Below, in pieces: positions 31,123-33,135 of a stretch of 33,135 bases of DNA (position 1 is its first letter; each line of letters begins with the position of its first letter). A program made the position numbers and the translations under genes. The stretch covers positions 1 through 33,135 of the forward strand of contig JAPYRR010000013.1 in assembly GCA_029936885.1 (NCBI GenBank), given 5' to 3'. The DNA comes from Fidelibacterota bacterium. GTDB taxonomy: Bacteria > Fidelibacterota > Marinisomatia > Marinisomatales > UBA1611. The notes below the pieces were generated by a model that made no database searches, was not told the DNA's origin, and saw only the letters and a program-made list of their open reading frames with translations.

Positions 31123-31347
31123 ATGAATAAAATTCAATCATTAATGCTGCGACACCCCCTGGTGAGTGTTGTATTAATTCTACCCTTAACCATGATGTTT
31201 ACGATGGCGGTTTTTTCACTCATTATAAATATTGTATTGCCTGGACTTTTAGCGTTGTGGTTGGCGGGCTGGGTTTACACATCTATTGTTGGGCAGCACT
31301 GGCGCCGGAATATCAATGAGCCGTTTTGGTTTATTCGGGTTAGTTAG
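31123..31347 (+). CDS. Small two-helix membrane protein of unknown function
   Basis: I start at the ATG at 31123, giving 74 residues; the frame is open upstream to a TTG at 31093, but that adds only a short basic stretch. MNKIQSLMLRHPLVSVVLILPLTMMFTMAV is a basic N-terminus leading into a first helix, and the second spans about IVLPGLLALWLAGWVYTSIV, ending in a basic, aromatic tail (QHWRRNINEPFWFIRVS). Its last 8 bases overlap the end of the convergent selenoprotein gene. No family is recognised. Confidence 0.6.
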   Translation: MNKIQSLMLRHPLVSVVLILPLTMMFTMAVFSLIINIVLPGLLALWLAGWVYTSIVGQHWRRNINEPFWFIRVS

Positions 31348-32455
31348 CGACTTGTTTCAATTCGCTGCATTTTGACAATGTTTCATTCACGAAACTCACC
31401 ATACTTTCATCATCGATGATCTCCTTACCCATGGGTACATTTTCAAAATGGAGTGTATTTACAGCAGATTTTAGGATCTTTCGGGTTTGCCCAATTTCTT
31501 TCCGTCTTTCGGTTATTTTTTCTAGAACTGCATCTTGGCCAGCATAGATCTCTTCCAATTTTTTACTCGAATCCGAATCCTGAAGCCGATCTAATATTCG
31601 TCGGGTATAATTCATCTTTTCTTCTAGATAAGATACATTTGTAACAGGATATGACTTATTTTTTATATTTAGTTCTGTCACATTCAGAAACCGTCCCTCC
31701 CGACCGCTGGAGTAGAGATAGGGACCATCCACAAGCTGCCGCATCATGGGGCGTGTGAGACTGGTGCTGCCGCTAGTATAGATCAGGTCAGCCTCAGAAA
31801 AATGGCCTGGTAGATCTTTATATGTGGATCGATCACTATTGACCAGCATCACAATTATATCCACTTTTTTCTTTATTTTTGAAATGATTTCCTGCCCAGT
31901 AATGATATAATTATCCAGGATCAATTCGGGGATGGAATCGGGCACCAAGTCTGTTAAACCAATAATACCGATCTTTAAATCAGATCGTCTCAGAATAATA
32001 TAAGGCTCAAATAAAAGTTTTCCCGTATTCCCATCCCTAAGGTTGGCAGAAATGAATGGAATGGGTGTGGATCGTGTAATGTCCAAAAGAAAAGGTAGTC
32101 CATTTGCCAATTCATATTGCCCTACATTTATGGCATCACAGCCAATTTGACCATATCCTTTGATGATAGCAGAGGCGCGATATGATTCTGAACTGCGGAT
32201 GGAATCATGGAGTGTGTGAGTGGAAAAAAAGAGATCCCCTGCATCTAGGATGATGGGGCTCTTCCCTTCTTTATTCATATTCATTATTGTCACATATTTC
32301 CTGGACAGACCGCCCAGTGGTTTTTTGGGTCATCCACAAGGGTCTAACTGTCCGTGAACGCTTCCTGTGACAACCAGGGTTACGTTTCCCTGCCCTACCA
32401 GAAAAGATATTAGAAAAATACCCGGTAACCATATTTTAATGATGTTAAAGATCAT
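31340..32455 (-). CDS. Predicted selenoprotein: exported UshA/5'-nucleotidase-like protein with a CGU motif
   Basis: Read from ATG 32455 with the TGA at 32330-32332 as selenocysteine, this is a 371-residue protein. Order: signal peptide (about 1-22, IIKIWLPGIFLISFLVG), VVTGSVHGQLDPCG-Sec42-PKKPLGGLSR (28-52), DAGD (71-74), CDAINVG (106-112), a metallophosphatase-like core, and a coiled-coil-like C-terminus (about 285-345). In the UshA/5'-nucleotidase superfamily, HG...GGLxRR...LDAGD forms the N-terminus; in a subgroup I recall, CGC precedes GGLARR. Here Sec replaces the second Cys. Conserved sequence lies on both sides of the TGA, and a SECIS-like hairpin follows it. The shorter GTG start at 32293 would lose the signal peptide and core motif. 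Metal ligands look degraded (SVHG for NDxHG, SGSTS for GHxH), so a redox role is likely. The start overlaps the upstream stop (ATGA). Confidence 0.85.
32301..32332 (-). promoter_or_regulatory. Selenocysteine UGA codon with bacterial SECIS-like stem-loop
   Basis: The UGA is at 32330-32332. After 12 bases, CUGGGC pairs with GUCCAG (6 bp, one G-U) around the loop GGUCU (stem-loop 32301-32317). The loop starts 18 bases after UGA. I recall the E. coli fdhF SECIS having a GGUC(U) apical loop at the same distance and a minimal hairpin of the same 17 bases. The loop GG is what SelB recognises. Caveat: GGUCUG also encodes Gly-Leu of the conserved GGL motif, so part of the sequence is fixed by protein. 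Confidence 0.82.
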
Positions 32456-32786
32456 TTTAACAGCAGGATTTTCTGTACAATAATTTTATTCCCGTCATTT
32501 AACACAGTAAAATACATCCCCGTTGCTACCGCACGACCGTTCTGATCCTGACCCTGCCAAATCACCTCGTGGTGGCCCATATCTCTCCAGCCGTTCACCA
32601 GCTCGGTAACATCCTACCGCTTATGTTTTGCGTTAGCACAAAATCATCCAGGGTATCATCATAACCCAGATCGATAATGGCTTGCTCAAAGTTGTCATCT
32701 GGGACATAGGTGTTTTGCCCCCAGAGCATGGACGCAGGGGCCAGGAGAATAATAAAAAGGAATAAAGGGATGAGGGTGTTGATTAC
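32452..32786 (-). pseudogene. Remnant of an exported LRR protein fused to a FlgD-like/T9SS C-terminal domain
   Basis: The 5' part encodes a signal-peptide-like NTLIPLFLFIILLAPASMLWG and then QNTYVPDDNFEQAIIDLGYDD (split after PDDN), TLDDFVLTQNISGRM, the N-terminal cap of FCB-group leucine-rich repeat proteins. The frame then shifts near 32611-32616. From 32613, DVTELVNGWRDMGHHEVIWQG...GMYFTVLNDGNKIIVQKILLLK is a FlgD Ig-like/T9SS sorting domain. The LRR array that should lie between is missing, the FlgD frame has a TAG at 32614-32616, and no standard start codon precedes the signal. This looks like an internal deletion plus frameshift, or an assembly collapse near the contig end. The stop TGA (32452-32454) overlaps the selenoprotein ATG. 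Confidence 0.72.
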
Positions 32787-33135
32787 GGTACCGGCAGGCT
32801 CGGGGGTTCGCCAATCGCACTGGAAGCACCGCCTGCGCCGCCATCTGCTGACGCACCGCCGCCCATGGCTACCGCTGCACCGCCGCCCGCTACCACAAGG
32901 CCAATGAGGCCATAAAGTAATAATTTGCTGCCGCCCTCACCATCTGCCAGCTCGGCGGATGCTTTCTTGCGCTTCTTCTTCAAGGCACGGGGCGGATCCA
33001 GTCCCAGAATATCCCAGGCCAGGATCTCGATCTCAATAATGAGTCCATCCACCTTTCCGGAATAGGTAATGCTTTTCATCCTTTCCGCTACACCCGTGGC
33101 CACAGAAAACATCTTGGCATCTATAGTATAGGTGT
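32783..33135 (-). CDS. C-terminal part of a membrane-anchored protein, possibly CsgG/FlgO-like
   Basis: The frame is open to the right window edge (TYTIDAKMFSVATGV...), so the N-terminus is missing and the Met at 33112 is internal. The first 50 residues (TIDAKMFSVATGVAER...SYSGKVDGLIIEIEILAW-like) resemble the end of CsgG/FlgO-type domains, where a modified amount of 'cell-state' is followed by a GLI...LA helix; this match is by eye. Then come a Lys-rich segment (LKKKRKKAS), a hydrophobic helix (KLLLYGLIGLVVAGGGAAVAM), and a Gly/Ala/Pro tail. It is visibly more GC-rich than the rest of the window. It ends just where the LRR remnant begins. Confidence 0.5.
   Translation of the reverse strand, partial: TYTIDAKMFSVATGVAERMKSITYSGKVDGLIIEIEILAWDILGLDPPRALKKKRKKASAELADGEGGSKLLLYGLIGLVVAGGGAAVAMGGGASADGGAGGASSAIGEPPSLPVP

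Follow-up and report, generated by a model that had tools for sequence, protein, structure and literature searches.

A very probable UshA-like selenoprotein with a Cys-Gly-Sec motif encoded by a member of Candidatus Neomarinimicrobiota

The window analysed here, a stretch of 33,135 nucleotides, is the whole of contig C37 of the host genome (G000; 1.71 Mb, 125 contigs, 87% complete). Towards its right end, the minus strand carries a gene for a UshA-like protein with a TGA codon within its reading frame, and the following features were recorded:

31340..32455, minus strand: gene of the very probable UshA-like selenoprotein, 371 amino acids followed by TAA, beginning with the ATG at 32455 and with TGA as Sec42
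32330..32332, minus strand: in-frame TGA, selenocysteine U42 of the motif P-C-G-U; 125 relatives share the TGA and 10 have a Cys codon
32336..32338, minus strand: Cys40, invariant partner of Sec42 (96/96 aligned relatives)
32391..32455, minus strand: hydrophobic N-terminal export signal MIFNIIKIWLPGIFLISFLVGQ, predicted from sequence
32301..32317, minus strand: bacterial SECIS-like hairpin, stem CUGGGC/GUCCAG, loop GGUCU, recognised by its fold, invariant synonymous codons and compensatory changes at pair 18-30

Between the ATG at 32455 and the TAA ending at 31340, the frame is interrupted by TGA exactly once, at codon 42 (32332-32330), with VTGSVHGQLDPCG-U-PKKPLGGLSRKY as its surroundings, and the motif CCNTGYGGNTGA...GGCGGTCT occurred once in the window, with 0.00 occurrences expected by chance. 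Under the standard code, the listed open reading frame covers 31340-32293 (317 aa) and starts at the GTG at 32293, so that the first 54 residues are lost, as an earlier note on this DNA had stated. The same note had described the product as exported, in agreement with the predicted hydrophobic signal which, unlike that of most relatives, has no lipobox Cys (aligned position 18 is Cys in 51/96 relatives). The stop codon of the upstream frame (...TTAAAATGATC) and the ATG of this gene overlap. Upstream of the gene, at the contig end, the region 32457-33135 (minus strand) has a broken or chimeric look: VPDDNFEQAIIDLGYDDTLDDFVLTQNISG, similar to the beginning of a leucine-rich secreted protein, precedes NGWRDMGHHEVIWQGQDQNGRAVATGMYFTVLNDGNKIIVQKILLLK, a C-terminus of sorting-tail-like type that is read in a different frame. 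Relatives of the UshA-like selenoprotein were absent from IMG/VR, and thus no viral link was indicated.

The codon aligned with position 42 was inspected across 137 loci, in which the same gene is sometimes present twice, from two collections (88 distinct Sec sequences over the first 48 nt). TGA was found in 125 loci, TGT in eight and TGC in two, the remaining two rows (L156 and L157) having been mis-anchored by the regular expression; this recurrence of TGA at one codon, together with the ten Cys codons, argues that the in-frame TGA is not a matter of chance. Within the same GTDB family, relatives were detected in 27 of the 33 genomes, and among the loci read every relative covering the motif carried TGA. 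With respect to the nearest ortholog, dN/dS was 0.135 for the part preceding the TGA and 0.139 for the part following it, indicating the same protein-level constraint on both sides. That the TGA is a real stop, in a decayed gene or through a sequencing error, and that translation of the remainder begins at the GTG at 32293, would agree with the reading frame yielded by standard annotation and with the broken or chimeric aspect of the region just upstream (32457-33135), but it was rejected as practically without probability, since the codon and its intact flanks are common to independent assemblies and 125 loci, dN/dS is about 0.14 on either side, and downstream silent sites are frozen.

The genes required for Sec incorporation were all detected in the host genome. 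SelA (511 bits) adjoins SelB on C43 (340.8 bits when its neighbouring piece is included; cut-off 242), SelD is encoded on C87 (399.5 bits), and a tRNA-Sec with anticodon TCA (UCA) is found on C66 (67.2 bits). The SelD of this genome (L046, G000:C87:8621-9547) is itself a selenoprotein, with one in-frame TGA in HGSGU. An in-frame TGA alone does not specify the inserted residue, and we therefore also weighed the possibility that TGA stands for an ordinary amino acid throughout the genome (code 4/25-like); this was rejected, with a likelihood close to nil, given that 2 of 17 long open reading frames in the window end in TGA, that the full Sec machinery is present, and that relatives without Sec carry Cys at the aligned residue. 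Two marks of a bacterial selenoprotein were found together, namely an in-frame UGA that is conserved in orthologs and replaced by a Cys codon in some homologs, and SelA, SelB, SelD and tRNA-Sec in the genome. The earlier note had proposed to look for selA, selB, selC and selD, for orthologs in which TGA recurs at this position and for Cys homologs with conserved flanks at U42; all were found, in support of its reading of the gene as a selenoprotein with Cys-Gly-Sec. Sec decoding of the TGA is very strongly supported, to nearly the degree that sequence evidence allows. As the comparative evidence suggests, SelB and tRNA-Sec would decode the UGA as Sec at the bacterial SECIS hairpin directly downstream.

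The hairpin consists of a six-pair stem (MFE -9.0 kcal/mol) with a loop that begins 18 nt past the UGA and occupies nt 22-26 when the U of UGA is taken as nt 1, an offset shared with G23-U24 in E. coli fdhF. Taken together with the loop sequence GGUCU, these values lie within the published bSECIS model, which specifies a stem of 4-16 bp, a loop of 3-9 nt, MFE <= -7.5 kcal/mol, and a G in the first two loop positions at 16-37 nt from the UGA (PMC13188914). Rfam gave no match in the window at gathering thresholds, and no SECIS family in an E-value search of L001 and L002; the hairpin was judged by codon freezing and covariation, not by Rfam. Among 25 homologs, the loop codons were nearly invariant (G48 = GGC in 25/25, G49 = GGT in 25/25, L50 = CTG in 24/25; codon entropy of 0, 0 and 0.24 bits, respectively), whereas entropy was 1.4-2.0 bits at the remaining invariant Gly residues, for which all or most codons occurred. 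The third base of G48 was C in 88/88 distinct Sec sequences vs. 2/9 distinct Cys sequences (Fisher p 3e-9, relatedness ignored). The wobble-position pair 18-30 was found as G-C, A-U, U-A and C-G. Two-sided covariation was seen at one hairpin pair only, and a control slid by +1 scored similarly to the true register, because Ser-type and Ala-type sequences use hairpin registers one base apart. When single sequences were folded against shuffles, the window hairpin was not better (z -0.46), vs. z -2.28 for the paralog L002. With the bSECIS geometry and the frozen GGC-GGT-CTG codons, the claim of a correctly placed SECIS-like hairpin was upheld. In one TGA relative (L062, G222) the downstream codons are GGC-GGA-TTC, the sole departure from the GGCGGTCT loop, and its SECIS may differ.

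A natural control was provided by the streamlined genus g19 (genomes of ~0.4-1.0 Mb), in which family matches were recovered without an in-frame stop. TGT was read in L120, L121, L123-126, L130 and L141, loci of small-genome Marinimicrobia that we infer to be of the g19 lineage. SelA was absent from 7/7 tested g19 genomes (93-98% complete) and present in 8/8 other genomes tested. This sister genus has apparently swapped TGA for TGT and has lost both selA and the frozen SECIS codons, which makes for a clean natural comparison. A relative with TGC (L052, G197), whose genome has selA, still keeps the SECIS-like GGCGGTCT and possibly reflects a recent Sec-to-Cys change.

The product matched the NCBIfam model NF041198 (UshA_like_PCGU, 'UshA-like (seleno)protein') with E=1.2e-59 and 202.3 bits, below the cut-off of 275; the paralog L002 reached 230.4 bits. 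This match, along with that of the structural model to E. coli 5'-nucleotidase, bears out the UshA-like assignment of the earlier note. Its description of the protein as undescribed did not hold, as NF041198 exists and the UshA-like family has been catalogued since at least 2008, when the GOS selenoproteome listed COG0737 UshA-like proteins with a CxU motif (76 Sec sequences; PMC2398784), and again in catalogues of 2022 and 2026 (PMC9312934, PMC13188914). The window protein falls within this broad-sense UshA-like (COG0737) CxU group, and the gene very probably encodes a genuine selenoprotein of that known family. The literature search turned up no paper discussing what UshA-like selenoproteins do.

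The organisms carrying relatives belong to Candidatus Neomarinimicrobiota (Marinimicrobia), except for outliers from Calditrichaeota and Deltaproteobacteria. Across 245 genomes of the phylum, NF041198 had matches in 235, among which weak ones can include ordinary 5'-nucleotidases, and its cut-off was passed in one. Typical members of NF041198 share with the window protein the UshA-like domain and P-C-G-U (the Calditrichaeota member L148, with a score of 351.7 bits, has the same TGA), but the model runs to position 519 and includes a C-terminal multiheme part that is missing here. A tetraheme cytochrome (four CXXCH) was found at the C-terminus of L148 and of three delta-type members (L153-155), whereas the window protein has no CXXCH and the tetraheme part was absent from the Neomarinimicrobiota proteins examined, which explains their low scores. 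A second model, NF049981 (UshA-like (seleno)protein family 2), describes exported UshA-like selenoproteins of related fold, but with a CxxU instead of a CxU motif, and the window protein scores 20.1 against its cut-off of 140. The remaining novelty, a mild one, lies in the short cytochrome-less branch widespread in Neomarinimicrobiota, and the 76 GOS sequences may include this short form.

The AlphaFold model of the protein (mean pLDDT 87, pTM 0.85, with low confidence in the Cys-Gly-Sec loop, 38-42) had E. coli 5'-nucleotidase as its best Foldseek match (E=2.7e-18), and the exported product is predicted to fold like the metallophosphoesterase domain of that enzyme. The window protein has this N-terminal fold in common with E. 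coli UshA (PDB 1oie, 1ush), but it lacks the C-terminal substrate-binding domain, does not conserve the dimetal and catalytic residues, and bears Cys-Gly-Sec. SoxB thiosulfohydrolase (TIGR04486; E 6.2e-12) belongs to the same superfamily and is likewise exported, yet the score of 44.6 bits is far from the cut-off of 550 and the dimanganese site is not conserved in the window protein. For the mapping of ligands, a UshA fragment and the UshA metal-ligand numbering were used. D41 aligned with S32, H43 with H34, D84 with D74, N116 with Q113 and the catalytic H117 with Y114, while the mapping of later ligands is uncertain, the alignment being gappy beyond residue 200. In 96 diverse relatives, the ligand-equivalent positions 32, 34, 113, 114 and 206 vary or are occupied by non-ligands: position 34 is His in 51/96, position 74 is Asp in 70/96, and 113 and 114 can be anything. 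Position 34 was the sole column with His in >40% of the sequences, and as no His column is conserved, H217, H252 and H254 have presumably been lost. C40 and G41, on the other hand, were invariant, and residue 42 was always U or C, save for one alignment gap. What the earlier note had called the active motif is thus an invariant Cys-Gly-Sec/Cys, but not a phosphoesterase active site, since the metal ligands are not conserved.

A working metal-dependent 5'-nucleotidase or phosphodiesterase, with Sec as a metal ligand or accessory, would be in line with the fold, with the family matches to UshA, SoxB and NadN, and with the retention of D74 (UshA D84) in 70/96 relatives; it is nevertheless improbable in view of the five ligand positions that vary or hold non-ligands and of the 5'-nucleotidase C-terminal substrate domain missing from the 371-residue product. 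The loss of metal ligands and the invariance of Cys-Gly-Sec/Cys favour instead a metal-free scaffold with a Cys-Gly-Sec site.

A rhodanese and/or a MauE/DoxX-like gene adjoins the family gene in 54 loci, always in the same orientation and, for the most part, no more than 500 bases away, and these neighbours apparently form an operon with most copies, though not with the window copy. The rhodanese has an N-terminal hydrophobic segment and a YCS-x3-C active-site loop, and the MauE/DoxX-like protein has a CGC motif. The host genome carries a second UshA-like selenoprotein gene (L002, G000:C92:11104-12156), 51% identical, with TGA and a lipobox Cys; a SUI1/YciH-type gene lies upstream of it, and rhodanese and MauE genes downstream. 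The window copy is not beside such a pair, so the partnership may not hold for it, and in its nearest relatives (L079, L081) the gene just upstream is instead a thioredoxin-like one (AhpC/TSA, TlpA/ResA-like).

The lost ligands, the invariant Cys-Gly-Sec/Cys and the rhodanese/MauE neighbours favour thiol/selenol redox or sulfane-sulfur transfer, and the window protein probably has a thiol/selenol role rather than a phosphoesterase one; any particular substrate would have to be named with much lower confidence. The protein most likely acts in the periplasm as a metal-free selenol/thiol protein on a SoxB/UshA-related scaffold, with redox or sulfane-sulfur transfer taking place at Cys40-Sec42. 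In most genomes, its probable partners would be the membrane-anchored rhodanese and the MauE/DoxX-like protein encoded next door, and in typical members elsewhere the fused tetraheme cytochrome could pass electrons on. A more specific version, in which a SoxB-like metal-free carrier or hydrolase takes sulfane sulfur (persulfide) on its selenol from the neighbouring rhodanese, is suggested by the operon-like layout of the YCS-x3-C rhodanese and CGC MauE-like genes and by SoxB being among the best family matches. The tetraheme fusion, however, fits plain thiol-disulfide redox equally, and the window copy is without these neighbours; we regard this version as a serious possibility that falls short of being likely.

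Through an exported protein present in most of its genomes, Sec use is here confirmed for SAR406/Neomarinimicrobiota, a widespread uncultured marine phylum. Because NF041198 is tuned to cytochrome-fused members, genes of the short branch do not reach its cut-off, and their annotation is likely to be truncated. The conserved rhodanese/MauE neighbours represent a testable lead on the function of UshA-like selenoproteins. Tentatively, the cytochrome-less Neomarinimicrobiota branch might constitute a distinct functional type, a metal-free pseudo-phosphoesterase whose Cys-Gly-Sec site, a membrane rhodanese and a MauE-like protein would together form a previously undescribed periplasmic sulfur (or selenium) relay, largely missed by annotation models.
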